DNA of 47,879 nt from Pirellula staleyi DSM 6068 (GTDB lineage: Bacteria > Planctomycetota > Planctomycetia > Pirellulales > Pirellulaceae). This document shows positions 11,374 through 31,800 of this stretch, piece after piece. Location of the stretch: the NCBI GenBank assembly GCA_945900945.1, contig CAMDKL010000026.1:1-47879 (forward strand). The letters are read 5' to 3'. Within the stretch, counting starts at the first letter, position 1; each line of letters starts with the position of its first letter. A program made the position numbers and the translations under genes. A model generated the notes under the pieces. It saw only the letters and a list, made by a program, of their open reading frames with translations, ran no database searches and was not told the origin of the DNA.

Positions 11374-11379
11374 TTGGTG

Positions 11380-14300
11380 ATGACCATCCGCCGGCTTCGC
11401 AACACGAGTTCTCCTATCAATACCAAAACACCTAAAAATGCCCAAGCGTCCAGCGTAAAAAAACGTGGCAAGCTTCGTCGTTATCTATTAGAGGCATTGG
11501 AGCCCCGTCAACTCTTAGCTATTGGGCCGCATTTGATTGGCGTGCAGCCGAACAATAGCGACTTGATTGAGAACGGAGTGATTCGCAACATTGCCCCGCG
11601 CGAACTGACGTTCCGTTTCGACGATTCGCAGATAATCGACGCGGCGACGGTTGGGGGAATTCGAGTCACCCGTGCGGGTTCGGACGGTTCCTTTGCGTTG
11701 CCGAGCGTGTCGTCGGATTTCGGTTCGAATGGTCGAGTCGATATTCAGCTATCTAGTCGCAACGCGTCGGACCTCTTGACGATCAATGTCTTGAGAAGCG
11801 ATCTCGGGCCGACCGGCGATCCGACATTTGCGATCAACGGGATCAATGTCACGATTACTCTGAATTCGAATCCGAACGGGTTGGTTACTGCTCAGCGACT
11901 GGTCAATTTGATCAATGGTTCAGCCGTGGTTTCGCCTCGGCTCTCAGCCAAAATCAACGGTGGATTGGCGTCGGCGAAATTGGGTGGTGTTGATACCGCC
12001 AGTTACAGCCCAATTCAGCTTAGATCTAATAATGACGTGGTCGTACAACCAGGTGCTGTCGTCATTGGAGACCGACCTAACGAGAACGAAGTCACACTGC
12101 GTTTTGCGGAAAACTTGCCAGACGATGCGTATCGCTTGGAGGTTTTTGGTTTTGATGATGCGAGCCGAGGGATTCGCGGGCTGCGCAACACGAGCGGCGA
12201 GTTTTTTGTTCCTACGAACGCCAGCACACGTCAAGATACCATCGACTTCCGATTGGACTTGGGCTCCAAGGTCACGGCTGTTGTTCCGCAGCCTGTGGTT
12301 CGACTTGCGAATGGTACCATCGAACAGCAGCGCGATACGATCGTTGTGTACTTTGACAACGACAAGTTGCTGGTAGAGAATGATTCCGTCGGCAAGCCTA
12401 CGGCTCGAAGTGTAGAAAATCCGTCCTTTTATCAATTGATTTACACAGCGGACACGGTTCGAAATACGGACGATTTACCCGCATACTTTCCCACAACGGT
12501 TTACTACAACGCATCGGCGAACACTGCAACGCTTCGATTCGACAATGACATCGATTCTCTGCCAGGGCCATTTTTGCCATCGAGTACTTTCAGATTGCGA
12601 ATCGGCACACGCGAGTCGGCGCCGATGTCGCCCGTTCGCACGGATGCTTCAGCGACCGCCATTTCGGATTTAAATACCAACGGCAGTGCCAAGCTTCGAT
12701 TTACCTCGAAGGCATTGGGTCATGCAGGCGGTGGTATTACCGTCTCGTTTGTCAATGGTCCCGCTTCTCCAAATCCGACCGTCACAGTAGTCGGTAAAGC
12801 GATAACCGTTAACATCGGCAGCGCAACAGCAGTGTTGCCAAACACGGTAACTACCGTCAATCAAGTTCTCGTCGCGTTAGAAACAAATCCGGCTTCATCT
12901 GCTCTGATTAAAACCATACTGGAGCCAGGCAGCGATGGAAGTCGAATCATTGGCAATCGACCTATCAACTACTCCCCCGTCCCTATATATGGACTTGGAA
13001 GCAGTTTCGATACCGCCTCCAATTTAGGCACGATCGGTTCATCCAGCGTCGCTCAGACGAGTCTCTTGCTGAGTTCCGCCATTGATCCTGAGACCAATGT
13101 TTTGGACTTGATTGGCGCCGTCAACGATCCAGCTCAACGCATTGTTGGCGAAACGTTTGAAAATCATATCAATCCGGCGTTTGGTGGCGATAATTTCGAC
13201 GGGATCCGAACGATCTATTACAACTTCAAGTCGATCTACGGTACAGACGCTGGCGTACCGGTTTCGAACGTGATTACAGAAAAGCAGAAGCTTCGAATTC
13301 GAGAAGCGTTTGCGTTGTGGTCGAATCAGCTAGGGGTTCAGTTCGTTGAAACGGCGGATATCGGATTGACGATGGCGCTGGGAACCACCAATGCGCTTCG
13401 TTTGGGGCAATTGCAAGTTGAAACGGTGGGGCAATGGGGCGTTCGGATTGACCCAACCTACCAAAACAGCTTGGCGGTTTTTTCAGCCAACAATGTATGG
13501 AATGATAACTACGGCGAGAATTTGACCCGAGCCGCAGCGACCAGCATTGGCTTCATGCTTGGGCTTTCGCGTGCGGCGAATTTGGACCCGTCCGAATTGC
13601 TCAATCTCGATACCGGCTTCCTTACTTTCCGGTCAACGGCGGATCGTAATTTCGAACCGATCTTCCCCGGCAATCAAGACATCATCCATGGTCAATATGT
13701 GCATCGCCCCGAGAGTAGCGATATCGACTTGTATCGTTTTGATGTCGATTTTGGCCCGAACGGTCAATCGCGTGAAGGAGTTCTCGTCGCTGAAACGTTG
13801 GCCGAACGCCAGGCGAATAGTAGTACGCTCGATACTCGCCTCGCTTTGTATCGTGAAGTTCAGGCAACCGCCACGTCGAATCTTGGTTTGGGGCAAGGGG
13901 TACAGTTGCAATTCACAGCGGTCAAACCGGGTAAGCTCGGAAACAATCTGCAAGTGTTTGTGACTCGGAGCAATCGGGGAGCAGGTGCGTTGCCGATCGT
14001 CAATGTGTTTCCCAATGCAATTTCGGTCGATTTGAACTCGACTACGGGTTCCGAATCCACTCTGGGACAGCTTGTTGCTGCGTTGGACAATGATCCTGTG
14101 GCCCGCTCGCTCGTAAAGGTAAATCTATTAGGTGGCAACCCAGCAACCAAAGTTGGGGATCGAGATATTACTTATTCGCCCATAACACTCAAGGGTGGCG
14201 AAATGCAACTGATTTCTCAGAACGATAATTATTTTAGCAAGGACTCGCTGATTCGTCAAAGTCTTTCGTCGGGCGTTTATTATGTTGGGGTTTCCGCTTC

Positions 14301-17300
14301 CGGAAATGATCAGTACGACGCGACGATTTCATTTACTGGGACCGGCGGTAGGACCCAGGGAAAGTACGATTTACGATTAACGTTTAGAGCTCAAACCGAC
14401 AGCGTGGACTCGATTCAAGACGTCACAGGCGTTGGTGGCGATGTGTCGATTGCCCTCGATGGTGATGCGGATGGTGTCAGTGGAGGAGTCAATAATTTTT
14501 GGTTCCAGACTCGACCTCTCGATCGGGCTATGCGATTCAATGCTGGCGGATCCTCGGCCCTGGAAGGGCAGATCGTGACGATTCGAGGTGGCAATGGAGT
14601 CGATAGACGGTTCGAATTCAGTAAAGATACGAATATCGGTATCGGAAACACTCGGATTTTATATTCGGATGCTCCAATTGCCAGCACCTCGGGTGATTTA
14701 GCTACCGAGTTAGCGATTGCGATTAACAGCCGTTCCGCGGAACTGGGTGGGGTTACCGCAATCGCCAACGGTGCACGCGTAACGCTGCGTGGAGAGCGAT
14801 TGGTTCAGCTATCGCCTGGCATGACGGTGCTCGACATCGCAGGCAAGACCCTATTTGTTGATAAATCGGCTGGTCCAAATGCGGACGGCTCATTAGCTCA
14901 TCCATTCAACAACATTTCCGCCACAGGCGTAGCAAATGCCTTTGGTTCAACTGTTCCTGGTGACATTGTTCGGATCGTTGGAAATGGCGGAGCCGACCAA
15001 AAGTTGGAAACCGTCGGGGATAATTTTGCTTACGAGATCGGCTTCGGACTGCTGGCAGGATCGATCTTGTCCGATGGCGCAACGATGGATGTCCCTAAGG
15101 GTGTGACGGTGATGATCGATGCGGGAACTGTCTTCAAGTTAAACCGTTCGAGAATTGGCGTTGGAAGTTCTACGCTTGGAGTGGATCGAAGCGGTGGTGC
15201 ACTGCAAGTCTTAGGTGCACCTATTCTTCTGGATGCAGCCGGCAATGCCAAGAAGCTCAGCGATGGGTCGACTGCTTCCGGTAGTGTGTTTTTCACGTCA
15301 TGGTTAGACGAGTTGATTGGTTTGGACAATTACCAGCCTCGGACGACGCCCGCAGCCGGAGATTGGGGTGGATTGCTATACAAACGCGATCTGGACCTTT
15401 CTGCGGGTCGGTCTGATTTAGAAGACGAAGGCATCTTCCGACAGTACGTCAATCATGCGGACATTCGGTATGGTGGATCCAGCGCTGTCGTGGTCGACAC
15501 AATACAGCAAACGGTTAACTCGATCCAAATCGCCGATATGCGTCCGACGCTGTCGTTCAATAAGATTACATTCGGTTCCGATTCCGCGATCAGTGCAACT
15601 CCCGATAGCTTCGAAGAGACTCTTTTCAGCGAGCCTAAGTATCAGCGTAAAGGCAGTTTCACTCCGGACTACAATCGAGTCGGGCCAGAGATTCACGACA
15701 ATGTTCTGACCAAGAATTCCATTAACGGATTGTTTATTAAAGTGAGCACGCCAGCGGGCGGCGAACTGAAACAACTGACAGTTCCTGGGCGATTCGACGA
15801 TCCGGATGTGGTTCACGTCCTTTCGGAAAACGTGCTGATCCAAGGTGTTCCCGGAGCTAGTCTATTAGACCAAACTCTTTTGCCTTCCAATCTGGTTTCG
15901 TTGAGGGGCAGGACCGGGGGTACGATTACGCCTGGTATTTACAATTACAAGTTCACGTACGTTGACAAGTACGGGTACGAGACGCCGCCGAGCAATGCAA
16001 CACAAAACGTGACCGTGGCTCCAGACCAAACTGCGATTAGCATGACCGGTTTGCCAAGCGTCAACGGCGAGTTCGTAGCACGTCGATTGTATCGAAGTCT
16101 AGGGGTAGGTTCTGGGCCGTACCGATTGGTCGCCGAGCTCGATGGGATATCGACATCCTACGAAGACTTAGGGGCCGTTCTCACCGATTCCAACGATGAC
16201 AAAGCGACCTTGTTCCGGGACCGTCCGGATGTAGGTGGAGTTGTCTCGACGCCTTCCCTAGGTGGTTTTCTGTTTGCCGGAGACTACACTTACCGTGTTG
16301 TTATGGTGGACGCTGCGGGTCGAGAAGGATTGGCTTCGGCACCGACATCGGTGATTGCGACGGATTTAGTCAATCAAGCTGTAAGCCTGACTAATCTGCC
16401 TGCATTGCAATTGGGTTACGCGTCTCGTCGTATATATCGAAGTTCCTCGTCCGGAGCGGGTACGTTCCGACTAATTACGCAGCTTAACAACCCGAATGCA
16501 ACTTCGTATCTTGATAACGGCTCCAATTTGCAGGGCACGTTGTCGGTAGAATCGCTTGGCACTATTCGTCCGCGATTAGATGCTTCGTTGGCTATCGATC
16601 CAGGCACGATCATTAAGCTCGAAGGAGCGCGCATCGAGATCGGTCATAGCGCGCAGCTTTTGGCCGAGGGATTGGATGGAGGACGCGTTGTATTTACTAG
16701 CAAGCAAGATGACCGATTCGGTATCGGCGGCACATTTGACACCAACAACAATGGATTGCGTGCTGCTCTCGATGCACAGCCTCGCGACTGGAGCGGGATT
16801 TACGCATCGCCAGGTTCGACGCTCCAATTGGATCATACCGTATTAGCTTATGCCGGCGGATCGTCTCGAATCGAGGGTACGTTCAAATCGTTTAGCCCGA
16901 TTGAATTGCAACAAGCAGACGCTCGCATTGCGCATACGGTGTTTGAAAACAATGCAAATGGAATGGGCGGTCAAGGACCTATCGATCGACTGGGACGTCC
17001 CGCCAATGAAAATTATCCGCTAGGAAACAATCTAAGCCGCGGTTCGACGTTGTTTGTACGCGGTACACAGCCTATCATTTTGGACAATGTATTCCAAAAC
17101 AACGCTGGCAGCGCGATCACCATTGATGCCAATTCGATGGACGCCGTTCTGCGAGGCGACTCGGGACGGCAATCGGGAGCAATCGATCGCGATCCGACCC
17201 TAGACACCAATCGCGGTCCGCTCTTCCGAGCAAATCGACTGTTCAATAACGGTATCAACGGTTTAGAAATTCGTGGCGACTACAGCACGAACAATCGAGA

Positions 17301-20300
17301 TGAAACCGCATTGGCGGTGCGTGACCTGCAGCGAAACATCTTGACGACTGAAAGCGTCTGGGATGATATAGATATTGTTCACGTTCTGTTCGATTCTATT
17401 ACCGTTTCGAATTTGGAACATAGCGGTGGACTTCGGCTACTAAGCGCGGTTAACGAGTCGTTGGTTATCAAGATGGAAGGTCAGGGTTCCAACTTTGACA
17501 AGGAACGAGGGACGGGTATCACTGCGACTGGCACCTATAGCAGTATACCGGATCGCGTGGGCGGAACCGTACATATTATTGGTCAATCAGGTTTCCCTGT
17601 AGTCTTTACCAGTTTGCGTGACGATGCCGTTGGGGCAGGAACGCAACCGGACGGTCGCCCGCAGACGGATACGAACAATGACGGCATCGCATCCGTACCT
17701 CGACCTGGCGATTGGCGAAGCACACTGTTCGATACGTTCAGCAATGATCGAAACGTGTTAACTGTTTTGGAAACCGAACGGGTTGACATGGTTGCGCCTG
17801 GAACGAACGATTACGCCGCGACGGCTCAATTCCTTGGAACTTTGGCAAAGAACGAATCCTCGACGGACGAAAGCTCTCCGCTCGGCTTTGTAATCCATGG
17901 TGTCCTTAGCGACGCGAATGATCAGGACGTGTTCAGCTTCGTGGGTATTGCTGGCACTCAAGTTTGGTTTGACGTCGACAGCACTCGTTTTTCGTTGGAC
18001 ACGGTTATCGAGGTCTTGAATGCCAACGGAGATTTACTAGCGCGAAGCGATGACAGTACAACCGAACAAACGGGAACAACTGCGATTTTCACGACGCCAC
18101 TGATCGATGTGAACAGCGCAAATCCGCTTCTGCGCCGAGCCAATGCGGTTGCACGCAGAAATGTCTCCGGGTTGCTGAAGGATGACTATACGAGCAATCC
18201 ACGCGATGCAGGCTTGCGAGTTTTATTGCCAGGAGTGACGGGCGCTCAAAGCACGTTCTTCTTCCGAGTTCGCAGCAAGAGCGTCAATATTGAGAACTCC
18301 GGTGCAGGTCTGACCAGCGGTTCATACGATGTGCAAATTCGATTGCGAGATGCCCAAGAATTCGCGGGGTCCACCGTGCAGTATGCGAATATTCGTTACG
18401 CCACTAATGGTGTGCATGCGACTGGACTTCCGTACCACTCGCCCCTCACTGGCGAGGCCAACGTTGGCATGTTCGATGGTACGCCGAACGATAACATCAC
18501 ACAACTTGGGTCACTGAATCTGACGGATCGTGGTGCCATCAGCGTTGCGGGATTGTTGACGGCTGGGTCGGCCAATGTGATGCAATTTACGTTGGGAGAC
18601 ACCGATCTTATTCAATCGGGATTCAATACCCTTTACCCGATTTCCATCGATGTCGATTATGCGGACGGTCTCAATCGCCCAGACACGACGGCCTACTTGT
18701 TTACATCCCAAGGTCTCTATATTGGCGGAGACAGCAACATCGTGGACGACCGTGCAGGGCCACTGCGAGGTTCGGATCTTTCGGACTTGTCGCGTGGGTC
18801 GGTAGGGACCAAGGATCCGTTTATTGGAACGGTTTCGCTGCCTCGTGGGACTTATGATTTAGGTATCGGTGGGCCAACATCGCAACCAACCGTTCTATCG
18901 CGAAACACGGTCCTTTTCGACGACAGCTTGGAGTCGCTACCTTACAGTTCGATCAAGAATCCCGCCGCGAGCCCCTTCATTAATACGGCTCTCGCTGCCA
19001 ATAATTATGTAACAGACGTTAACTATTTGTGGAGAAACTTCACCACGACAGAGGGTGGGCACGGCGGGACTAGTGCGTTCGGTTTCCAGATTGGTGACCC
19101 GGGCAAGGCAGTGGGGCAAGCGAATCCACTTCAACTGATTTCCAATACTTTTTCGTTTCCATCCACGTGGGAAAGCGGCGACCCGGTTCGCTTTTCGATG
19201 AACTATCGATTTCCGAACGGTCCTGGGGCAAGTGGGGATCTGCTGAGAGTCTCGTTGGTCGAGGTTGTTGACCCAACAACGAACGTAGTGCGTCAAACGA
19301 CGGTAGTCGGTTTTTCTCAATCGTGGCAGCAGTTGGTTATGGACATGAGTTCATTTGCAGGATCCACCGGCCGCTATTTTATCGCCTACGACTATCTTTC
19401 AGGCCCTGCGACCATGAACCCCAATGCGGGCGTCTTGATGGATGATTTTTATCTGGGCATCTGGACGCCCAGATACTCGCCATTGGATACCTATCTGTCA
19501 ATTGCGAACGAGTCTTTCGAGGGTACAACCCCAACCGCCACGATCGGGGTACTCTTCGATCCGACGTCGGTTGGCACAGGACAGAATTTATGGAACTTCC
19601 GCAATGTCGGATCGGACAGAAATCATCAAGGCTTCAACGCACTTGCTTTCCAATCCAATGGTGGAAACTCCATGGCGGCAGGAGCGTTTGGCGAGATCGT
19701 TTCAAATCCGATTGATTTGAGCAGTGAGACGGGAACAGGCCTCTACTTCACCTATGACTTCAATCCGCACGACAACAACGAACGGCTGGATGTATTCTAT
19801 CGAATCGCGGGACGACCAGACGTATTGATCGCGAGTAGTGCCCCGACTTTTGGTTTTGGATCCGCTACGGTAACGCTTGCACGGACGCAAGGGCAATGGG
19901 AGCAAGCTCGAGTGGACTTGCGAAGATTTGAAGGTGAAGTCGGAAACCTAGTATTCAGTTACGACACCCAAGGTGCTAATCCAGCGGGGTCCAGAGATAC
20001 CGGATATGCGTATATCGATGACATTTTGATCGGTTTGCGTTCACGCGGTGAGCAAGTGACGAACATCGGTTCCGCCAGAACGTTTACCAACTCTGGATTT
20101 GGCGGGACTAGTGGAAATTACCAGGTCGAAATCCGCAAGTCGGACGCCTTAAAAACGATTGGGACATTTTTCCCTGTTGTCGTTCCCAAGGAGCGATATG
20201 ATCGCGGTTCATTCAGTACATCGCTCTATTTCAAGCCAGGGCTCGTGATTGCTGACAAGAGCATTATGGAGTTGAGTGACGGTGCTAACCGAGTCAAGTT

Positions 20301-23300: not shown

Positions 23301-26300
23301 CTCTTTGAATCCAGTCGATAACGATGCACAGGGTGTCGATATCGATACGACAATTTCGGTTGTGCGTCTAACGAGTGGTGTTTATCCAGAATTCCGCATT
23401 CAACTTAAGGACGGCTTTGAAACAGGAAACTTGCAAGCAGGTACGGGCATAGATGACAACTCCGTGACGGGTCGCGACGGTGGAAATCGTTTGCCAGGCT
23501 CGGTGGTAACCATCACAGAAAACGGCCGTCTGTTGGTTGAGGGGATCGATTATGCATTCTCCTACAACACAGGGACGAACGAGATCGTCCTCAAACCGTT
23601 AGCGGGCATTTGGAAGAACGATCGAGTCTACGACATAACGCTCAACAACAAGGATCGATTTGTTATTGACGCGCCCGCTGGAGATCAAACGGCGGACGGC
23701 GATAGCTTTACCATTCTCGACAGTGCGAATGGTAGTGTAACCTTCGAATTTGACAGTGGATACCGACTGCAGATTCCACAGGGCGTCGAGTTGATTGTAC
23801 CTTTGGCCGGCGGCGGTGCTGGGGGTATCAACGATGGCGACCGATTCGTTATCGACAATGGCATTCAAGGCTTCACGTTCGAATTTGACAATAACAATAA
23901 TTCGATTGCAGGCAATTTCCGCGTGCCATTCACATCGTTATCGACTCGCTTGGACATAGCCAATTCAATTGTGACTGCCTTGTCAGCGATACCGAATATT
24001 GTCCCTCGCATTATCAGTTCCGGAAATGTTTTTGTTGGCTCCGTTTTAGGTGCCTACGCGGACACGACAGATGCGGCCGCGCTGACACAGCCAAAATCCA
24101 CAGTTGCGTTGCTTGTGCCAGCACTTGGAACGCGACCTGGTGGAGTTACCGACGGTCAAACGTTTGGAGTGTCGGATGGTCGTCAGAGTCTGATCTTTGA
24201 ATTCGACGGTGATCGGGCTGTACAGCCTGGTAACATTCGAGTCGATATCTCCCAGGCTAGCACCGCAGCCGAAGTGGCTATCGTCATCAAGTCGGTGTTA
24301 GATACGTCCGGACTGGCGCTCGCCACGCAGATCGTGGACGGTGACAAGGTTTACTTGGGGTTACCAAACGCTGGACGGTTCGATCCGATTGGTTCCACTT
24401 TGAGAAGCGTGGGTGTGTCGCGAGCTTTGGTTGATGGCCAGTCCATCTCCATCACTCGGACCGTCGGCGCAGTTGTTACCACCAAAGTGTTTGAGTTCGA
24501 TACCAACCCCAATCCAGGCGTAGTCGCACCCACAAGCATACGCATACCGATTTCCGTTTCGGATACCCAGTCCGATATCGGGCAAAAACTGGCTATTGCG
24601 ATTTCGTTTGCTGGCCTTGGGCTAGACCCGCAACACGTCGGCGATGGAAATGTGTTTGTCGGGGGAACCGCTGAGCATTCTATTTCGACTGCCAATGCAA
24701 GTTCTGTCGGTTTATTCGGTCGACCTGGAGTACAGAGCAGTACGACTTTGGATATTTTCGGAACATTGCTAATGCAGATGCCACCACGGGGTGGAGTGGA
24801 CGTCGTCGATGATACTCGGTTTACCATCACCAATAACAACCGAACCGTAACGTTCGAGTTCGACGGCAATTTTAGTGGGCCAAGCACGCCTGCGAACGTG
24901 GCTGTTCAGTATACCGCAGCGAGTACGTCGAGCGATCTGGTAGCAACTCTATTGCCGTTGATTCTGAATGCGGGCTTAGGAATCGTCCCTCGCGATGCAG
25001 GTGGTGGTCGAATCGACTTAGGTTTGCTTCAGAATTCCGCCGTAAACGTATTGACCTCGGCAGTGACGTTGTCTCGCGGTAGCGTCGCGGATGGCGATTA
25101 CTTTGTCATCAACAATGGCACACAATCAGTGACCTTTGAATTTGAGAATCTGAGTATTGGGAATGGTCGCAATCCGGCCTTTACGCCAATTCGCTATAAC
25201 AATCAAAGTTCTCGCAATGATGTATTTTTAGCCATGAAGGCAACCATCGAGTCTTCGGTGTTGGGTCTTACGACGGTAATTCAATCGAATGGCTTGAGGT
25301 TGCTTGACAATGCTAAGTTTACTACCAACATCGACAATGCTCCTTCATTGGTGATGACTGGAGTTCCGGGTGGTGCAATCCCGATTAGCTTTGTGCAGGA
25401 TCAATCCTTTACATCGCTTCAAATGCGAGATTCGATTGTTCGAGCGATCAGCGATGCGTTCACTGCCGGTCGTTCGACTCTCCAGGCTAAAGTACGAGGC
25501 GGCTCGACGCTGTATGTTGAGAATGCCGTGAGTATTAGTCCAGATGTCATTAGCTACTATTTGCGAGGTATCGCAGACAACGCTGGCAACTTCCTGAAGA
25601 GCAATCGGATCAACAACGAGACACAGTTCACGATTTTGATGCCTGGCATTCAATTGGACTTCGGCGACGCTCCCGATCCGGTAACGACGACTCCAGGGCG
25701 ATATCCGACGCTGCTCGGTTTTGACGGTGCTCGGCACGTATCCAATGCCACAGCGTTACGATTGGGTGCTGGCATCAGCTCCGAATTGGATGGCACGCCG
25801 ACGCCTCGCGCCGACGGCGATTCGAATGACGATGGCGTTTCGTTCCAATTCCAATCGTTGGTCACACCGAGTTCCAATCCAATTTTCAACCGCAACGTGG
25901 ACACCACCATTACGGTCACGCTCTCCACACCTGGAATCGTCGATGGCTGGATCGATTTCAACGCTGACGGAGACTGGACAGATCCAGGCGAAAACGTTCT
26001 TAACGGGGCCGTATTTACTTCGACTACCTTGACTCGGCAGTTTCAAATCCGGGTACCTGCAACAGCTCCAGTTCCTGCCACAGGACTCGATTCGTTCGCA
26101 CGTTTCCGTGCATCTACCGCAGGACAAACGCTGCCAACGGGGTTGGCATTGGATGGCGAAGTAGAGGATTACTTGGTTCGAATCGTACCGGGCATTCCAC
26201 CGATTGGCGTGGCCGACACGTACACGATGAGCGAAGATCAAGTGGGTGGCTTGGTAACGACCGATCCGACAGGAAATCTGACCCCAAGCTTCAAGGTCGA

Positions 26301-28734
26301 CGATGGTGTTCTGGCAAACGATATTAGTCCGGACGGAAGCCCGATGCTGGCAAGACTCGTTACACCTCCACAACAAGTTGCGGGTGGTTCGTTTGTGTTC
26401 AGTTCAAACGGAACCTTTAGTTACCAGCCGACGCCGGACTATTTCGGTACAGATACGTTTGTCTATGCGAGTTATATCAATCTCGATATCACACAAGGCG
26501 AGAAGATCGATTCGCTCGCGTTGACGACGGTGACAATCAACATACGGCCTGTGAATGATGTTCCAATAGCCAACAACTTCAACAGTTCAATCGATGAGGA
26601 TACCCTGTTGGTGCTCTCGGAACAGAGTATCATCCTATTCAGCGGAGCGACTCCGGGACCAGCCAATGAATCTGGGCAAACGTTGCGAGTTTCGCTGCCG
26701 AATTTTGTTTCGGCCCAAGGTGGCAGTTTGAATTTGATCGGTAACAACTTGGTTTACACTCCCAAGTCGAACTTCAGCGGTATAGATACGTTCGCGTTCA
26801 CGCTGACCGACAATGGTCTGACAGGTGCGTTACTCGACTCGCTGTCCGTGACTCGAATTATTACCGTCACGGTTCGAGATACCAACGACGCACCCACAAC
26901 GACCCCCAAGTCGATTACGGTTGTTGAAGACATCGTTGATTCGAGGAACACGTTCCCTGTTTCCTTCTTTACTGCCGGAGATTCTGCAGGACCATCTAAT
27001 GAAACGGATCTGCCACCACTCGGGCAAGGCCAGACACTCGCGTTCTCAGGTGTGGTTCTTCAAAGCGAAAAGGGGGGAACAGTCTCCTTTGCTAACGGTT
27101 TGGTCACCTACGCATCAGCTCCTGATTTCAACGGAGTCGATCGATTCTTTTACTTAGTTACGGACTCGGATCCAACGGATCCAAAAACGTCGCGTGGTAC
27201 GGTCACAGTCACCGTCACGCCAGTCGACGATGCTCCGCGAGTTGTGGCGTCTTTAGGGCGGATCAATATGCTGGAGGACGAGACAGAGCGGGCATTGCCC
27301 CTTGCATCGTACTTCTTCGATCCAGACGTTATTCCAAACGACGATCGTTTGACCTATCAAGTTATCTCGAACACCAATCCGTCCCTAGTCGAGCCAACCA
27401 TTGGCCCGAATGACATCTTCGTTCGCCCCAAGGCGGATCAAAATGGGTCCTCGATCATTGTTTTCGAGGCGACCGATAGAGCTGGCAACAAGGTTCGCAA
27501 TACGTTGACTGTGGTCGTGTCACCAGTAAACGATGCCCCGCGTTTGACCGCCCCGTTCCCGAACTTGAACGTAGCTGAGGATTCGCTGATCCCAGATACG
27601 ACGTTGTCGCCAACCCATTTCTTCGATCCGGATGTGATTACTAACGGGGATACGCTGGTATTCAGCGTGACCAACACGAATCTAGACGTGGTCACGGCTT
27701 CGATTGTCAATGGAAAATTGCGATTGGTCCTCGTTCCAGATGCGTCGGGGTTGGCAACCATTACAGTAAAGGTAGTGGACAGTACCGGAAACGTTTTGGA
27801 AGACAGTTTTGATATCTCGGTGGCACCGGTCAACGACGCTCCACGGGTCGTAGACGATCTGTTCTACACGACACCCCAAGGAACAGAGCTGCGAACAAGT
27901 GATGCCAGAGGCACGTTGACAACTGCTAGGAACGATGACGGTGTGTTGGCAAACGACCGGGACATCGAAGGCAATACTTTTACCGCTCGTATTCGAGTTG
28001 CCCCGACCCTCGGCTCGGTTACGCTCAATTTGGATGGCACGTTTAGTTACATTCCATTTTCAACTACCCTAAAGGGTGCGGTGGATTCGTTCAAATACGA
28101 AGCGGTTGACTCGCTTGGTGCTGTAAGTACTCAGGCAACGGTTGCGATCACGATTGGGAATCCACCTCCGCCGACGCACCAAAATCCAATCCAAGGTTTG
28201 GACGTTGACGCGGACGGACTCGTTTCGCCGATCGACGTGCTGTTGATTGTGAACTACATCAATTTTAATGGTCCGTCTACTCCGGTTGCCGGACTGCCAG
28301 CTCCCCCTCCTTATAGGGATGTCAACGGGGACAATCGGATTGATCCGTTGGATGTCCTCGCGGTCATCAATTTCATCAATGCTCGCGGAAACGGTGGTTC
28401 TGGCGAAGGAGAAATGGTTGGGATTTTGGAGGAACTGCCGAGTTTCGCAGCACCGCTGAACTGGTCCTCAGACGTGATGCGAGATACACCGAACCTTGGT
28501 ACAAGCATGGTTTCGGTACCGGCTCGCTCACTTGCTGACTCACGTAGTTCCAGCTGTCCTCAGCCGGAATCTTGGAATTCGGTTTCGGCTCCGATGAGTC
28601 TAGCGGACTACTTATCGAGCTTCGGGATGGATGACGAAGCGGTCGAACAGTTAGCTTTGTCGACGGCCGATTCGCTGGCAAAGGACGACCACGAATCGTT
28701 AGACTCGTTCTTTGCGGAAGTGTTTGGCACCTAG
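11380..28734 (+). CDS. Giant multidomain LEPR-XLL/dockerin protein with pseudo-metzincin domain (G1)
   Basis: The 5784-residue protein begins with a basic segment and 'LEPRQLL' (40-46), the LEPR-XLL motif of planctomycete exported proteins. In order follow: Ig-like domains interrupted by inserted modules (118-219, 435-541); a metzincin-like domain without zinc ligands (about 606-755); a PPC-type domain split by a third module (about 776-1005); beta-helix-like segments (about 1150-2130) with two FN3-like units; a second PPC domain; jelly-roll-like modules (about 2505-2895); a Gly-rich stretch; a third PPC domain (about 3420-3545); an FEFD-module array (4105-4720); a GEVED domain (about 4825-4935); six PVNDAP Ig-like modules (to about 5590); a dockerin (5601-5678) and a tail ending 'SLDSFFAEVFGT'. 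Only three Cys were seen. It is inferred to be an extracellular adhesin- or scaffold-like protein and a paralogue of G2 110 nt downstream. Precise function is unknown. Confidence 0.9.
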   Translation: MTIRRLRNTSSPINTKTPKNAQASSVKKRGKLRRYLLEALEPRQLLAIGPHLIGVQPNNSDLIENGVIRNIAPRELTFRFDDSQIIDAATVGGIRVTRAGSDGSFALPSVSSDFGSNGRVDIQLSSRNASDLLTINVLRSDLGPTGDPTFAINGINVTITLNSNPNGLVTAQRLVNLINGSAVVSPRLSAKINGGLASAKLGGVDTASYSPIQLRSNNDVVVQPGAVVIGDRPNENEVTLRFAENLPDDAYRLEVFGFDDASRGIRGLRNTSGEFFVPTNASTRQDTIDFRLDLGSKVTAVVPQPVVRLANGTIEQQRDTIVVYFDNDKLLVENDSVGKPTARSVENPSFYQLIYTADTVRNTDDLPAYFPTTVYYNASANTATLRFDNDIDSLPGPFLPSSTFRLRIGTRESAPMSPVRTDASATAISDLNTNGSAKLRFTSKALGHAGGGITVSFVNGPASPNPTVTVVGKAITVNIGSATAVLPNTVTTVNQVLVALETNPASSALIKTILEPGSDGSRIIGNRPINYSPVPIYGLGSSFDTASNLGTIGSSSVAQTSLLLSSAIDPETNVLDLIGAVNDPAQRIVGETFENHINPAFGGDNFDGIRTIYYNFKSIYGTDAGVPVSNVITEKQKLRIREAFALWSNQLGVQFVETADIGLTMALGTTNALRLGQLQVETVGQWGVRIDPTYQNSLAVFSANNVWNDNYGENLTRAAATSIGFMLGLSRAANLDPSELLNLDTGFLTFRSTADRNFEPIFPGNQDIIHGQYVHRPESSDIDLYRFDVDFGPNGQSREGVLVAETLAERQANSSTLDTRLALYREVQATATSNLGLGQGVQLQFTAVKPGKLGNNLQVFVTRSNRGAGALPIVNVFPNAISVDLNSTTGSESTLGQLVAALDNDPVARSLVKVNLLGGNPATKVGDRDITYSPITLKGGEMQLISQNDNYFSKDSLIRQSLSSGVYYVGVSASGNDQYDATISFTGTGGRTQGKYDLRLTFRAQTDSVDSIQDVTGVGGDVSIALDGDADGVSGGVNNFWFQTRPLDRAMRFNAGGSSALEGQIVTIRGGNGVDRRFEFSKDTNIGIGNTRILYSDAPIASTSGDLATELAIAINSRSAELGGVTAIANGARVTLRGERLVQLSPGMTVLDIAGKTLFVDKSAGPNADGSLAHPFNNISATGVANAFGSTVPGDIVRIVGNGGADQKLETVGDNFAYEIGFGLLAGSILSDGATMDVPKGVTVMIDAGTVFKLNRSRIGVGSSTLGVDRSGGALQVLGAPILLDAAGNAKKLSDGSTASGSVFFTSWLDELIGLDNYQPRTTPAAGDWGGLLYKRDLDLSAGRSDLEDEGIFRQYVNHADIRYGGSSAVVVDTIQQTVNSIQIADMRPTLSFNKITFGSDSAISATPDSFEETLFSEPKYQRKGSFTPDYNRVGPEIHDNVLTKNSINGLFIKVSTPAGGELKQLTVPGRFDDPDVVHVLSENVLIQGVPGASLLDQTLLPSNLVSLRGRTGGTITPGIYNYKFTYVDKYGYETPPSNATQNVTVAPDQTAISMTGLPSVNGEFVARRLYRSLGVGSGPYRLVAELDGISTSYEDLGAVLTDSNDDKATLFRDRPDVGGVVSTPSLGGFLFAGDYTYRVVMVDAAGREGLASAPTSVIATDLVNQAVSLTNLPALQLGYASRRIYRSSSSGAGTFRLITQLNNPNATSYLDNGSNLQGTLSVESLGTIRPRLDASLAIDPGTIIKLEGARIEIGHSAQLLAEGLDGGRVVFTSKQDDRFGIGGTFDTNNNGLRAALDAQPRDWSGIYASPGSTLQLDHTVLAYAGGSSRIEGTFKSFSPIELQQADARIAHTVFENNANGMGGQGPIDRLGRPANENYPLGNNLSRGSTLFVRGTQPIILDNVFQNNAGSAITIDANSMDAVLRGDSGRQSGAIDRDPTLDTNRGPLFRANRLFNNGINGLEIRGDYSTNNRDETALAVRDLQRNILTTESVWDDIDIVHVLFDSITVSNLEHSGGLRLLSAVNESLVIKMEGQGSNFDKERGTGITATGTYSSIPDRVGGTVHIIGQSGFPVVFTSLRDDAVGAGTQPDGRPQTDTNNDGIASVPRPGDWRSTLFDTFSNDRNVLTVLETERVDMVAPGTNDYAATAQFLGTLAKNESSTDESSPLGFVIHGVLSDANDQDVFSFVGIAGTQVWFDVDSTRFSLDTVIEVLNANGDLLARSDDSTTEQTGTTAIFTTPLIDVNSANPLLRRANAVARRNVSGLLKDDYTSNPRDAGLRVLLPGVTGAQSTFFFRVRSKSVNIENSGAGLTSGSYDVQIRLRDAQEFAGSTVQYANIRYATNGVHATGLPYHSPLTGEANVGMFDGTPNDNITQLGSLNLTDRGAISVAGLLTAGSANVMQFTLGDTDLIQSGFNTLYPISIDVDYADGLNRPDTTAYLFTSQGLYIGGDSNIVDDRAGPLRGSDLSDLSRGSVGTKDPFIGTVSLPRGTYDLGIGGPTSQPTVLSRNTVLFDDSLESLPYSSIKNPAASPFINTALAANNYVTDVNYLWRNFTTTEGGHGGTSAFGFQIGDPGKAVGQANPLQLISNTFSFPSTWESGDPVRFSMNYRFPNGPGASGDLLRVSLVEVVDPTTNVVRQTTVVGFSQSWQQLVMDMSSFAGSTGRYFIAYDYLSGPATMNPNAGVLMDDFYLGIWTPRYSPLDTYLSIANESFEGTTPTATIGVLFDPTSVGTGQNLWNFRNVGSDRNHQGFNALAFQSNGGNSMAAGAFGEIVSNPIDLSSETGTGLYFTYDFNPHDNNERLDVFYRIAGRPDVLIASSAPTFGFGSATVTLARTQGQWEQARVDLRRFEGEVGNLVFSYDTQGANPAGSRDTGYAYIDDILIGLRSRGEQVTNIGSARTFTNSGFGGTSGNYQVEIRKSDALKTIGTFFPVVVPKERYDRGSFSTSLYFKPGLVIADKSIMELSDGANRVKFQFTYDGTFGFGNSPIVISATSTPWELAVSVRDAINTLFTQNRLKISAANSNGVDTGLAAKNSLINLVGDVEFISGANLFGAGGVLLFNGFGDQNVARDQGQFVVNASTISDSRDYAVWSAPADLYYADGRAAQPLTVTGGGGGGGGGFFGNNYNYVGAPTLGGAYARKLPVLNTVAFAVNPGSVAERAGLAPGMVVVNNIFDSSGLGGLHVEGQNPFWRITARPGALDSSQTDNACGDHAGSFFGGDGASFTVDYGRQRVGFEFEEISGAAGDCGGSSVVGGNGWSPDRIPIYYRSDTGATYLRAGGTSSGYAADEMVKAIRDSIMGSVLVTNGTTQNVRSWVEPQAAFVLPIPPALPVRPSASLIIQGPQNIASNGGGQIQRLGEYTAAPFLRAVNNTIIGNDGRASFNAQAIDSASNNTIAGATETWQGTGTNTAPYVVNGTLNPDPLSTGSSDVDLYKFYLEVGERVLIDVDTLPLSSLDSSLKVFDSKGRAQVVSIGLDPKTMDSQAAPGEVVAGADPYVDFTATVAGVYYAGVSASGNTTYDPLSLADRRRGGTSGNYNLSIKVLKPESYVITAEDSSAYSDGDTFTIEQVADFAGTTNRGVTFEFTRSGNVTAGNIPIYIGPEYRVPDMARAIAGAINFSGLLNTQTLSNGAFPVASPLAPVSAIALGGINGHNPTLDIAVANTIVNPPILTVDVGINSGNIRGAEIEAGLNRYPGWTNDQSPFDSIAGIGQNNGSTSTTSTFQGHGNIGIGHDRTMSLPFLTSNSALPITSRGNGTTEKYVVVRNASSIIIRGNIRVDKDLGANNNLNQIIPESGILVSGGATPTLLNNVFVNVQTPIVREFTAGQVNSARPSAVVVGGSTYQFAESRQAFAYLGQAVETSPTNVPNTLLDFNFTAGDTEQLFVDAPGGNFLPAPGSRVIDSSIDSLPDREAFRAVKLAVGIAASPVLAPDRDQSGQLRADDPSVAPPSGLGGNVFKDRGAIDRADFVGPTAISLNPVDNDAQGVDIDTTISVVRLTSGVYPEFRIQLKDGFETGNLQAGTGIDDNSVTGRDGGNRLPGSVVTITENGRLLVEGIDYAFSYNTGTNEIVLKPLAGIWKNDRVYDITLNNKDRFVIDAPAGDQTADGDSFTILDSANGSVTFEFDSGYRLQIPQGVELIVPLAGGGAGGINDGDRFVIDNGIQGFTFEFDNNNNSIAGNFRVPFTSLSTRLDIANSIVTALSAIPNIVPRIISSGNVFVGSVLGAYADTTDAAALTQPKSTVALLVPALGTRPGGVTDGQTFGVSDGRQSLIFEFDGDRAVQPGNIRVDISQASTAAEVAIVIKSVLDTSGLALATQIVDGDKVYLGLPNAGRFDPIGSTLRSVGVSRALVDGQSISITRTVGAVVTTKVFEFDTNPNPGVVAPTSIRIPISVSDTQSDIGQKLAIAISFAGLGLDPQHVGDGNVFVGGTAEHSISTANASSVGLFGRPGVQSSTTLDIFGTLLMQMPPRGGVDVVDDTRFTITNNNRTVTFEFDGNFSGPSTPANVAVQYTAASTSSDLVATLLPLILNAGLGIVPRDAGGGRIDLGLLQNSAVNVLTSAVTLSRGSVADGDYFVINNGTQSVTFEFENLSIGNGRNPAFTPIRYNNQSSRNDVFLAMKATIESSVLGLTTVIQSNGLRLLDNAKFTTNIDNAPSLVMTGVPGGAIPISFVQDQSFTSLQMRDSIVRAISDAFTAGRSTLQAKVRGGSTLYVENAVSISPDVISYYLRGIADNAGNFLKSNRINNETQFTILMPGIQLDFGDAPDPVTTTPGRYPTLLGFDGARHVSNATALRLGAGISSELDGTPTPRADGDSNDDGVSFQFQSLVTPSSNPIFNRNVDTTITVTLSTPGIVDGWIDFNADGDWTDPGENVLNGAVFTSTTLTRQFQIRVPATAPVPATGLDSFARFRASTAGQTLPTGLALDGEVEDYLVRIVPGIPPIGVADTYTMSEDQVGGLVTTDPTGNLTPSFKVDDGVLANDISPDGSPMLARLVTPPQQVAGGSFVFSSNGTFSYQPTPDYFGTDTFVYASYINLDITQGEKIDSLALTTVTINIRPVNDVPIANNFNSSIDEDTLLVLSEQSIILFSGATPGPANESGQTLRVSLPNFVSAQGGSLNLIGNNLVYTPKSNFSGIDTFAFTLTDNGLTGALLDSLSVTRIITVTVRDTNDAPTTTPKSITVVEDIVDSRNTFPVSFFTAGDSAGPSNETDLPPLGQGQTLAFSGVVLQSEKGGTVSFANGLVTYASAPDFNGVDRFFYLVTDSDPTDPKTSRGTVTVTVTPVDDAPRVVASLGRINMLEDETERALPLASYFFDPDVIPNDDRLTYQVISNTNPSLVEPTIGPNDIFVRPKADQNGSSIIVFEATDRAGNKVRNTLTVVVSPVNDAPRLTAPFPNLNVAEDSLIPDTTLSPTHFFDPDVITNGDTLVFSVTNTNLDVVTASIVNGKLRLVLVPDASGLATITVKVVDSTGNVLEDSFDISVAPVNDAPRVVDDLFYTTPQGTELRTSDARGTLTTARNDDGVLANDRDIEGNTFTARIRVAPTLGSVTLNLDGTFSYIPFSTTLKGAVDSFKYEAVDSLGAVSTQATVAITIGNPPPPTHQNPIQGLDVDADGLVSPIDVLLIVNYINFNGPSTPVAGLPAPPPYRDVNGDNRIDPLDVLAVINFINARGNGGSGEGEMVGILEELPSFAAPLNWSSDVMRDTPNLGTSMVSVPARSLADSRSSSCPQPESWNSVSAPMSLADYLSSFGMDDEAVEQLALSTADSLAKDDHESLDSFFAEVFGT
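11491..11520 (+). other. LEPR-XLL motif of G1
   Basis: EALEPRQLLA at residues 38-47 follows a Lys/Arg-rich stretch. This motif marks the N-terminus of many large planctomycete surface proteins and is thought to be linked to export; no conventional signal peptide is visible. Confidence 0.85.
11731..12036 (+). repeat. Inserted 'YSPI' module copy 1 in G1
   Basis: About 102 residues beginning 'GRVDIQLSSRN' and ending 'YSPIQLRSNND'. It shares with copies 2 and 3 the order: beta-rich start, a Pro-Thr segment, 'G-x-x-I/V-T-V/I-x-L/I', a helix with 'LVxLxNxxP/A', and final 'YSP'. In G2 the flanking sequence is continuous across this site. Confidence 0.6.
12682..13002 (+). repeat. Inserted 'YSPI' module copy 2 in G1
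   Basis: About 107 residues, 'GSAKLRFTSKALG' to 'YSPVPIYGLGS'. It contains 'PTVTVVGKAITVNI', 'VLVALETNPASSALIK' and 'IGNRPINYSP', the clearest form of the module. G2 passes directly from the equivalent of 'FRLRIGT' to 'SAANIGT' without it. Confidence 0.65.
13195..13640 (+). other. Metzincin-like domain of G1 lacking zinc ligands
   Basis: The segment aligns end to end with the metzincin domain of G2 ('ITEKQKLRIREAFALWSNQLG' against 'ISPEQKQRVREIFEFYSAQLG'; 'FPGNQDIIHGQ' against 'FPGDDDVIHGQ'). At the zinc motif (13540-13572, residues 721-731) it reads TSIGFMLGLSR, so all three His and the catalytic Glu are replaced while the intervening glycines and hydrophobics remain. Confidence 0.85.
13891..14202 (+). 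repeat. Inserted 'YSPI' module copy 3 in G1
   Basis: About 104 residues, 'GQGVQLQFTAVKPG' to 'YSPITLKGGE', sitting inside the first PPC-type domain between 'LYREVQATATS' and 'ISQNDNYFSKDS'. G2 has the equivalent of these flanks almost adjacent ('GALTVVATNNNYFSDDS'). Confidence 0.65.
15916..16545 (+). repeat. Two FN3-like units in tandem in G1
   Basis: Two related units of roughly 90 residues: 'GIYNYKFTYVDKYGYETPPS...RRLYRS' (15916-16188) and 'GDYTYRVVMVDAAGREGLAS...RRIYRS' (16258-16545). Both share the 'Y-x-Y-x-x-x-x-V-D' strand and the 'ARRLYRS/SRRIYRS' strand. G2 has one equivalent unit at about 32056-32322, so G1 gained or G2 lost one. Confidence 0.6.
20716..20791 (+). repeat. (GGT)n polyglycine tract and G8 homopolymer in G1
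   Basis: Nine consecutive Gly codons, mostly GGT (20716-20742), are followed 41 nt later by a run of eight G (20784-20791) encoding part of Leu-Gly-Gly. The protein stretch is a flexible linker. Both tracts are prone to polymerase slippage. Confidence 0.85.
23692..25539 (+). repeat. Array of 'FEFD' modules in G1
   Basis: About 616 residues made of repeated units with the pattern 'D-G-x-x-F-x-I-x-[ND]-G...V-x-F-E-F-[DE]', then a Gly-Asn/Ile strand, a helix ('A..I..A/S..'), and a final beta strand. It has an N-terminal half unit (23692-23826), five full units (from 23827) and a C-terminal half unit without FEFD (25375-25539). G2 has a single intact unit at the equivalent place (about 39070-39330). 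Confidence 0.7.
25846..26190 (+). other. GEVED domain of G1
   Basis: After the 'LDFGDAPDP' linker, the segment shows 'GWIDFNADGDWTDPGE' and ends in 'GEVEDYLVRI', the hallmark of GEVED domains in large bacterial surface proteins. Confidence 0.85.
26206..28160 (+). repeat. Six PVNDAP-type Ig-like modules in G1
   Basis: Six divergent cadherin/VCBS-like Ig modules of roughly 95-120 residues, mostly ending with 'P-[VT]-[ND]-D-[AV]-P'. Individual units show 'DVLANDxD' or 'FxPxxxFxGxDxFxY' motifs. Such arrays form stalks in extracellular adhesins, often calcium-bound. Confidence 0.85.
28180..28413 (+). other. Type I dockerin of G1
   Basis: Two F-hand repeats, 'LDVDADGLVSPIDVLLIVNYIN' and a second with 'RDVNGDNRIDPLDVLAVINFIN', carry calcium-binding Asp/Asn positions (residues 5601-5678). 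No cohesin is seen in the window, so the partner is unknown. Confidence 0.9.
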
Positions 28735-28844
28735 ATAATCAATTAAAATGACCTTTGCCTCGACAGAGGTGTTGGGTCCAACTATCACAGAATCAACCCC
28801 ATTCATCTTTTTCCAATCTGTTAAGCATTCAAGGTTCATCCAAC
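28735..28844. other. Gap between giant genes G1 and G2
   Basis: Only 110 nt separate the stop of G1 and the ATG of G2. No stable hairpin with a T-tract was seen, so read-through from G1 is plausible. AAGG at about 28831-28834 is the only weak ribosome binding site before 28845. Confidence 0.55.
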
Positions 28845-31800
28845 ATGGGAATTGACGCATCGAAATCTGCAGACCGAAATCGCTCCTCGATCAAGTTGAG
28901 AAGGAAAGAATTTCGAACGCTGCTTTGCGAAAACCTCGAACGCCGGGACCTGATGGCTGTCGACGGGCCGCGATTGTTGTCGATAGCCCCAAATTTGGGC
29001 GAGATTTTCTCGACGACGAGCGCGAACAATCTCAACGAGTCCCCGCGCGAACTGGTGTTGCGATTTGATGCTAACTTAAGCGCTGCATCGGTTCAAAACG
29101 GGAGTGGAATTCGGATCAGTCGATCCGGTGGGGATGGGATTTTCGGGAACACCGGAGATGTCATCGTTCAACCGGCATTTTTGAATTTTTCCGATCCTCA
29201 AAATTCGCGCGTGGTGGTGGCGAGATTCGCTCAGCCTTTGCTCGATGACCTCTATCGAGTCGAAGTCTTTGGGGTCGATATTCCTTCTCAATCGGTCAGT
29301 GCCCTGCGAGATACAGTCGGAGTCGGGCAGTTGCTGAAACCGCGTAGAGTAGGCACTGATCGAGACACGTATGACTTCGACCTGGAGTTGGGCACCAAGA
29401 TCATCGCGGTTGTTCCTCAACCCATTGTTCGCGACGCAGGTACGGGTGCCCTGACGCGCCGAGGCGATCAAATCGAAGTCTATTTCAACGACAGCGAGCT
29501 TTACAATCTGCCGGTGACATCCATCCCGGGTGGTCTCAATCCAACTGTTGTCGACCCTAGCTTTTATAACCTGTTGTTCACCAAGGACACCATCGGACCA
29601 GCAGACGACGTTGTTTTCTCGCCAAAGCCAGATGGGATTTCGTACGATCCGGTATTGAGGAAGGCCACATTGACGTTTGCTCAGGACATCGATCAGTTGA
29701 CGGGCGTGGGTGGGACTTTCCGATTGCGAGTCGGCACTAGTTTGACGGCCACTCCAATTACGCTGGTGGATTTGACGGCGACGGATCCGGGTGGTGATTT
29801 GCAGAGCGCTGCCAACATCGGAACTCCAGGTTCGTTTTCTACGGTCATCAGTCAGCAAATCGTAACGACCACGAACCCACTGTTGAATGATTTTCCTGGG
29901 TCCAACTTTGAACCTGGCCACCGCGACATTCAGGACGAATCGCACTTGGGATTAACCACCGATTCCACTCAAGGGATCACGACGGTTTTTTATAGTTTCA
30001 TGGACAATCAACCCTATGGAAGCGACAGTCTCGGGCGACCAGTCTTCAGTTCTATTTCACCAGAACAGAAACAGCGAGTTCGCGAGATTTTTGAATTCTA
30101 TTCCGCTCAATTGGGAATCGATGTCGTAGAGCATTTAGGGCCGACCGTTACTGGGGACGGAATTAAGAAAGTGGTTGTAGGGGATCTCAATCCCCTACTA
30201 GGTTCGAGTGGCCCAGGCGGAACAATTGGGATAGCACCGGTCGGAGGCGAACTGGCGATCATGGACGGTGCAGAGGCGTGGGACAACACCTTTGGCTATG
30301 GTTCCAACATTCCTGGCACTCAAGGCTTTTTCGAAACCACCTTGCATGAGATCGGGCATTTGCTTGGACTGAGCCACACCTACGACTTGCCGCCCGGAAC
30401 AATCCAAGGCAGTGAGCGCATACTTGGTCGTGTAGGAAATCCACTTGAGCAAATTTTCCCAGGTGATGACGATGTTATTCACGGTCAACGTCTCTACCGT
30501 CCAGACAATCGCGATGTCGATCTTTATCGATTTGTTTTGGCAGAGAAGGGTGATTTCCGTGCGGAAACCATTGCCGAACGTCTTAACAATTCCAGCAACC
30601 TCGATTCTTACCTAACGCTCCTACGAAGAGATGGGGCAACGGGAGCACTGACTGTCGTCGCAACCAACAACAACTACTTCAGCGACGACTCACTCATTAG
30701 CCTGAGTCTTGAGCCAGGCGAGTATTTTATTTCTGTTACTGGCAAGGGTAACGAAGACAACAATCCGGAAACATCCAACACGGGTAGTGGAGCAGTCAGT
30801 CAAGGCCGATATGATTTGCGAGTGGACTTCAAGAGTTCGGTCGTCAACGGCATCGTGGAAGAAGTGGCTGGTTCGACCCGCAAGGGAAGCGCATTGGATG
30901 GGGACGGCGATGGACTCGCTGGCGGCAACTTTGATTTCTGGTTCCGATCAGCTGCGTTGCCATCCGCTGTGGATCCGCCTGTTTCTGCTGCTGCTGTCCT
31001 TGGCTCGCCAACCAATCCTACGACTCCGCGTACACTACTAGTCGATAGGGCCTTTACCGGTCCCGGAGTTGCAAATGGTTCCGTGGCCATTCCGTACAAT
31101 CGAATCTCGCAAGCGACGGCAGTTGCGCGTCGTGGGGACATCATTCGTGTGGTAGGCGATTCTCGAACACCGACTAACTTGACGGATGAATCTGCCTACG
31201 AGATTGGCGATGGCGGTGGCTCGGTTGGAATATTGGGCGACGGTGCGTCGTTGGATGTACCGCGCGGGGTGACTCTGATGTTGGAAGCCGGTGCTATTCT
31301 CAAGTTGGGTGGCAGTCGAATTCTGGTCGGCAGCAACGACAGCACCACCGATAGAAGCAGCTCTGCCGTTCAAGTCCTTGGGATACCGGGGCTTCCGGTA
31401 TACTTCACAAGCTTTTCCGATGAATCACTTGGTAGAGACAATAATCCATTAACTACGACACCCGCGGCTGGAAACTGGGGTGGAATCGAGATCCGAAACG
31501 ACTTCGATCGTGCGCAAGGTCGCTTTGACCGCGAGCGGGAAGGCATCTTTTTGAATACCATTTCCAACGCCGATATGCGTTTCGGCGGTGGCCAAGTTGG
31601 AGTGGGTGCGTTGGCCAAAGTGGTCAGCCCAATCGACCTTTCGGAAGCCAGACCGCTGATCCTTGGAAATCGCATTTCTCGAAGTGGTGACTCGGCGATT
31701 AGTGCAGACCCAAATAGCTTTGAGGAAACCCTCTTTACCGAACCTCGGTATCAAAACGGCGGGGCCTTCGTCCCAGATTACTCGCGCGTTGGTCCCGATT

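Follow-up and report, generated by a model that had tools for sequence, protein, structure and literature searches.

When one of two neighbouring giant genes carries a protease domain with an intact active site and the other a domain from which the site has gone, what has become of the second? The question arises in a stretch of 47,879 nucleotides (nt) from Pirellula staleyi DSM 6068 (Pirellulaceae; GenBank assembly GCA_945900945.1, contig CAMDKL010000026.1, positions 1 to 47,879 of the forward strand), which was analysed as a whole and is called the window below. It is mostly taken up by two giant open reading frames (ORFs) running in the same direction, G1 and G2. An earlier note on this DNA, made from the sequence alone, had read them as a duplicated giant protease of the metzincin type in which one copy became a non-catalytic partner of the other, for example a substrate trap, scaffold or regulator. 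We find a conserved pseudo-metzincin in G1 to be well supported, and weigh below what it may be for.

Homologous domains with and without an active site

The zinc-binding and catalytic motif HExxHxxGxxH is intact in G2 (HEIGHLLGLSH, 30345-30377, + strand), which contains exactly one HExxH in its whole length. The aligned active-site helix of G1 (TSIGFMLGLSR, 13540-13572, +) lacks the motif. As the earlier note had correctly read at these coordinates, the three zinc-binding histidines and the catalytic glutamate have all been replaced, with T, S, F and R at those places, and neither HExxH nor HxxxH occurs anywhere in the 5,786 amino acids of G1. The flanks align across the domain (blastp, 102 of 307 residues identical, 33%, E = 2e-33), and the genes lie 110 nt apart, counted from the end of the G1 stop at 28734 to the MGID start of G2; both points bear out what had been claimed. 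A profile of G1 matched that of the active copies with E = 1.2e-66, and a profile of G3, a third copy that lies on another contig of the same genome and is dead too, with E = 7.7e-54. Co-linear matches between G1 and G2 span much of both proteins (for example, 41% over 902 columns), so they are paralogous as whole genes and not in their domains alone. On sequence grounds, G1 and G2 are tandem paralogues; chance resemblance of their domains is ruled out by BLAST, profile and fold matches. At one column, perhaps the position of the Met-turn methionine, the window's G2 domain carries Q; among 40 active copies this column holds M in 75% and Q in 20%.

The domain, together with the start of a PPC domain, spans 13087-13923 (+) in G1, supported by alignments, AlphaFold and Foldseek, and 29868-30632 (+) in G2, supported by AlphaFold and a profile match to MMP-1. 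Pfam Matrixin (PF00413) scored 20.1 bits on G2 and 11.9 bits on G1, both under the gathering cut-off of 24, and Reprolysin_3 fitted G2 about equally well (21.1 bits against a cut-off of 22.4). By genome search the PF00413 scores were 15.3 bits for G1 and 22.6 bits for G2, and 10 of 14 control genomes matched too. A profile built from 58 relatives matched MMP-12 in the PDB (E = 3.4e-8), and the match of one built from 23 motif-bearing copies to MMP-1 (E = 8e-9) ran from the backing helix through the zinc helix. AlphaFold modelled the G1 domain with a mean predicted local distance difference test score (pLDDT) of 77.6 and a predicted template modelling score (pTM) of 0.70, with residues 31-170 at pLDDT 81-96; the G2 model was better (pLDDT 86.8, pTM 0.81). 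Strands and helices follow one another in the G1 model in what we take to be the matrixin order, and the active-site motif lies within a helix at a like place in both models. Among Foldseek matches to the G1 model, the best 50 of 693 were all MMPs, karilysin or snapalysin (best E = 6.4e-7, probability 1.00), and 197 matches reached E = 0.001. The G1 domain is accordingly predicted to have a metzincin fold, with backing helix, sheet and active-site helix, and this prediction and the profile matches agree with the note's view that the G1 segment is metzincin-related.

Distribution and fixation of the loss

Matches to the G2 domain were found in 46 of 60 genomes, the window's own included, and in a wider sample the family profile matched 106 of 110 Pirellulaceae genomes and 38 of 40 genera. 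Contigs matched by the G1 profile belonged to Pirellula, Rhodopirellula, Stieleria, Roseiconus, Roseimaritima and Rubripirellula. Our wide tree held 234 copies, of which 227 were distinct. For this tree, for the typing of genomes and for residue counts, 'active' or 'motif-bearing' means no more than that the native domain contains HExxHxxxxxH; 4 of 77 motif-bearing rows lack the motif glycine. A 245-row residue count included a duplicate (L137) and fragments, one of them without the motif columns (L342), and the recount used the 234 tree rows.

All 77 distinct copies of the G1 clade were dead, as were all 46 of the G3 clade, and the 104 distinct copies outside these two comprised 69 with the motif and 35 without. 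The first and second histidines and the glutamate were gone in every G1 and G3 row (78 of 78 rows, 77 of them distinct, in the G1 clade), and the third histidine was still present in 14 of the 77 distinct G1 copies. The lost sites are fixed in the G1 clade, and most G2-type homologues, on whose state the earlier note had let its proposal depend, still have the motif (12 of the 17 G2-clade rows, besides the 69 of 104 above). Dead G2 sites read HEIGQSLGLDN in G009, G015 and G017 and REIGHLLGLGD in G022 and G024. Among genera with a single copy, the four typed genomes of g38 and g53 are motif-bearing and the two of g58 lack the second histidine. The g58 copy (G083:C2:88685, G106:C1:1058861) reads HEIQELLGLGH or HEISTLLGLGH, with the first histidine, the glutamate and the third histidine kept.

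A first tree, of 149 copies and built without the helix columns, gave the G1 clade (57 rows) a support of 100 in the Shimodaira-Hasegawa-like approximate likelihood ratio test (SH-aLRT); in the wide tree SH-aLRT was 84 for G1 and 96 for G3, and after thinning to 95 rows a careful tree gave 78/59 and 100/97. Given the 78/59 support, the G1 clade is not firmly delimited at its outer edge. On these unrooted domain trees the active or dead state changed at least 13 times among 149 copies and 16 times among 234. Since the G1 clade occurs in at least 14 genera (by group codes) and all its copies are dead, the loss is probably older than these genera. The proposal of a duplicated protease with one non-catalytic copy holds as to paralogy and fixed site loss; a simple duplication followed by the death of one copy is not supported, given the dead G1-clade copies of at least 14 genera and the third dead paralogue elsewhere in the genome. 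Recent duplication followed by decay is disfavoured by the trees and by the substitution rates given next.

Selection on the dead domain

We estimated the ratio of non-synonymous to synonymous substitution rates (dN/dS) by NG86, using pairs with dS of 0.1-1.5, which are not independent of one another. The median was 0.043 for the dead G1 domain (range 0.017-0.137; 23 of 300 pairs), 0.041 for the motif-bearing G2 domain (5 of 66 pairs), 0.048 for dead G2 (4 of 10 pairs) and 0.031 for dead G3 (20 of 351 pairs). Purifying selection acts on the dead G1 domain much as it does on the active one. Seven non-ligand columns of the helix had a conservation of 0.79 in G1 and 0.82 in active copies, and the four catalytic columns 0.52 in G1 versus 1.0 in active copies, where it is 1.0 by definition. 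The former ligand places of the G1 clade are mostly occupied by A, G or S and by L, F or M, residues able to pack a helix. Identity within the G1 domain was about equal to that of the remaining protein (77/70, 69/66, 67/62, 52/54 and 49/51%). Because selection has kept it nearly unchanged across many genera, the dead domain very likely has a job other than cutting. With catalytic loss fixed among orthologues and purifying selection on the domain, G1 has the hallmarks of a pseudopeptidase, as far as sequences can tell.

Tandem order and coupling of G1 and G2

We chose 13 same-genus clusters for having both copies on one contig; G1 came before G2 in all 13, with 96-110 nt to the MGID start in 12 and 1,274 nt in G001. 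Typing of 72 genomes by their main copies, with weak partial matches excluded (G045 and G056 wholly), gave one native motif-bearing copy in 50, none in 17 and two in five, and the 17 include four drafts without G2 (G012, G018, G025 and G026). In these genomes, 32 of 48 G1-clade copies are followed downstream by another copy on their own contig and strand: one motif-bearing copy in 19 cases, two in one, a dead and then a motif-bearing copy in four, and dead copies only in eight. In G094 the motif-bearing copy lies upstream of G1. Tandem pairs of a dead and an active copy, whose recurrence had been put forward as a check, do recur (24 of the 32); one active and one dead copy as a strict rule is excluded by the eight clusters with no active native copy downstream. 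In G032, G093, G084 and G101, three giants stand in a row, dead, dead and motif-bearing, with 36-42 kb from the first to the last domain.

A comparison of the mirror-tree type gave a result for G1-G2 coupling that depends on whether G021 and G023 are in or out. Over 17 genomes, the identity correlation was 0.48 for G1-G2 and also 0.48 for G1-G3; without these two genomes, it was 0.75 and 0.56, respectively. In G023 the G1 domain is the closest to that of the window (84%), yet the G2 domain is 41% identical and falls in a different part of the tree. Compared with G2 of the window, this G2 (G023:C38) is a mosaic: its ends are 65-79% identical (68% over the first 300 amino acids, 72-79% towards the C-terminus), and most of the middle is at 40-58%.

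Gene layout, grafted matrixins and a roaming module

The G1 ORF extends from 11374 to 28734 (+; 5,786 amino acids). From its first ATG, at 11380, it encodes a giant protein of about 5,784 amino acids (11380-28734, +) that contains the pseudo-metzincin domain, as annotated from the ORF list, Pfam and a tandem-95 match. Pfam matches in G1 include GEVED, Big_9/cadherin-like and dockerin domains. Near the N-terminus, the translation reads LLEALEPRQLLA (11485-11520, +), presumably a LEPR-XLL-like signature, on which Pfam Planc_extracel scored 13 bits, below its cut-off of 25.5. The G2 ORF covers 28755-47156 (+; 6,133 amino acids) from a mechanical TTG start. ORF and gap comparison point to the ATG at 28845 (MGID) as the likely start, giving a motif-bearing metzincin giant of about 6,103 amino acids (28845-47156, +); the TTG at 28755 is probably not used. 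Dockerin type I (PF00404) was found in G1 at 28201-28380 (+; E = 9e-13) and in G2 with its best stretch at 46764-46847 (+; E = 1.7e-9), so the putative enzyme has the dockerin that a cellulosome-like assembly calls for.

The 110-nt gap holds a hairpin (28747-28779, +) that begins 12 nt past the G1 stop (-14.5 kcal/mol, z = -2.84 against 200 single-base shuffles). Across the 12 gaps folded, a hairpin begins 9-17 nt past the G1 stop; against single-base shuffles, z lay between -2.4 and -6.9 for 11 of them and was -0.96 for the other. No U-run was seen. The hairpin may end, process or attenuate the transcript.

A second, canonical matrixin lies N-terminal in G1 in 12 of 26 same-genus genomes with a G1 copy (G001, G004, G005, G007, G010, G011, G013, G014, G018, G019, G020 and G025; in G018 as a separate frame). 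The carriers of this graft form one 11-row tree clade plus G019, whose fragment is not in the tree. Two example grafts scored 48.8 and 66 bits with Pfam Matrixin (coordinates are, for example, L133:7424-8107 and L137:7736-8416). The graft is also found in the dead G2 of G022 and G024, so that in the genus both graft events concern giants whose native domain is dead; outside the genus, grafts occur next to a dead domain (L196) and next to live ones (G084 and G085). The graft profile included G032 and G084 by our own choice, and the HExxH stretch that G032 has at its N-terminus seems to be of a different kind. A search with this profile found no graft in G1 or G2 of the window.

A roaming module of about 110 amino acids is present in three copies in G1 and in two in G3 (G000:C76). 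The G1 copies lie at 11704-12039, 12655-13005 and 13867-14208 (all +), with profile E values of 1.6e-39, 1e-37 and 3.3e-46 from a model in which these copies were included. Where G1 has its third copy, G2 has the continuing PPC domain, and the G1-G2 alignment stops there and then resumes. The module was found in none of the 12 same-genus G2 frames searched, dead or active, and outside the genus the motif-bearing giant of G101 gave four weak matches (E = 1e-3 to 2e-5). Dead G2 copies without the module rule it out as a mark of dead domains.

Interpretation of the dead domain

We favour, with a probability of roughly 0.6, the reading that G1 is an old and conserved pseudo-metzincin giant, whose dead domain serves for binding or structure, without catalysis, in a probably secreted protein. 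Its matrixin-like domain would have retained the fold while giving up zinc binding and catalysis, a loss that probably predates the divergence of the carrier genera. It sits close to the N-terminus of a very long chain that also has PPC, GEVED, cadherin-like and dockerin domains; there it would most likely bind or give structure and, by analogy with the pseudopeptidase domains of ADAM22 and ADAM23, would act via surface contacts. The adhesion-type domains of these giants speak for this reading. G2, the next gene, with its intact site, would be the likely protease of the cluster, and a direct G1-G2 complex is possible.

Several points tell against this reading. Secretion and a binding role of G1 are, like proteolysis by G2, what we infer. 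A profile from G1 orthologues only had stromelysin-3 as its best PDB match, at E = 0.35, and a G3-only profile had no match in the PDB. Foldseek TM-scores of the G1 model, taken by target, were mostly 0.56-0.73, with a root-mean-square deviation of 5-8 Å, and the predicted fold is not independent of homology because the alignment behind the model contained active relatives. Two of 13 clusters have an interrupted G1 frame (G020, L221-L223; G023, L206-L208), and that of G001 (L227-L229) has a ragged, early end; the G2 frame is broken in G020. Because these are draft genomes, broken frames from assembly error and from real loss are indistinguishable. The whole of G1 is not always protease-free either, since 12 same-genus genomes carry an intact matrixin graft on it. 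The domain might also have acquired another activity or metal site, which would suit its strong conservation; the former ligand places, mostly A/G/S and L/F/M, speak against it, although no systematic search for a new site was made, and we hold it to be very improbable.

That G1 is a dedicated partner of G2, acting on or together with its active neighbour as a substrate trap, an inhibitor or a scaffold, is suggested by the constant order in 13 of 13 clusters with a gap of 96-110 nt in 12, by the motif-bearing copy downstream of 24 of 32 G1 genes, by the 50 of 72 genomes with exactly one native motif-bearing copy and by the G1-G2 correlation of 0.75 without G021 and G023. However, only dead native copies follow in 8 of the 32 clusters, the order is reversed in G094, the closest G1 (G023, 84%) goes with a divergent G2 domain (41%) of another clade, the correlation over all 17 genomes equals that of G1 with G3 (0.48), and G3 is equally dead and located elsewhere. 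What stands of the earlier proposal is the recurrent pairing; the role of partner, trap or regulator is unproven, and we think it unlikely. Lower still we place the idea that catalysis is secondary throughout the family, the domain serving adhesion or assembly in each of G1, G2 and G3 while active sites come and go. The at least 13 state changes on 149 copies and 16 on 234, the death of G2 in 5 of 17 rows of its own clade and the grafting of a second matrixin in some giants would fit it, but 50 of 72 genomes keep one native motif-bearing copy and the motif is present in the four typed genomes of g38 and g53, genera with a single copy, which suggests that catalysis matters. A functionless, decaying remnant would explain the missing catalytic residues and the broken G1 frames in G020 and G023; with a dN/dS of 0.043 and retention in at least 14 genera, we find it hardly credible.

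The reading of G1 as a conserved pseudo-metzincin giant can be extended, tentatively and with more doubt than belief, to a Pirellulaceae-wide system of giant surface proteins with live and dead metzincins side by side (typically one live and at least two dead), in which the dead ones would be specialised for binding within a shared extracellular assembly and lineages could re-arm dead giants by matrixin grafts. The cluster combines repeated loss and apparent re-gain of protease domains. A bacterial pseudo-metzincin that is under selection in at least 14 genera, in giant genes and often with an adjacent active paralogue as a natural control, gives a testable function to planctomycete giant genes, which the parts of the literature available to us describe by domain names.

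Comparison with known systems

A partial literature search found no report of pseudo-metzincins in Planctomycetes, and the review of inactive metallopeptidases, in the part available, covers mostly animal ones (PMC11266112). These include ADAM2, ADAM11, ADAM22, ADAM23 and unc-71 of C. elegans, in which, by the same part of the review, HExxHxxGxxH is partly or wholly eroded; like G1, with its probable secretion, they are metzincins with an eroded motif in multidomain extracellular proteins (PMC11266112). They differ in being animal M12 membrane proteins, whereas here a matrixin-like domain sits in giant tandem genes. ADAM proteins are, moreover, far shorter than these giants. Matrixins (M10; MMPs and bacterial karilysin) resemble G2 in the zinc motif, and the profile matches of the family and the fold matches of the G1 model are to MMPs; in contrast to them, G1 and G2 score under the Pfam cut-off, and G1 lacks the zinc ligands and the catalytic glutamate.

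Among planctomycetes, Stieleria varia has giant genes Pla52n_17480, 17490 and 17500, the last annotated as Matrixin with 6,858 amino acids (PMC7717043, Table 2). By annotation they resemble the G1-G2 clusters in consecutive locus tags, cadherin-like domains and the matrixin label, and the part of that paper available to us remarks on no inactive site (PMC7717043). The hypothetical planctosome, as outlined in part of PMC6461901, consists of dockerin-bound M12B-like peptidases of Nemodlikiaceae; like G1 and G2, these are metzincin-type peptidases, thought to be assembled via cohesin and dockerin, but they are proteins of Nemodlikiaceae and, in that part of the model, not giant-sized (PMC6461901). 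If the family-wide system of live and dead giants is real, it would be a bacterial counterpart to the division of labour seen with ADAM pseudopeptidases.

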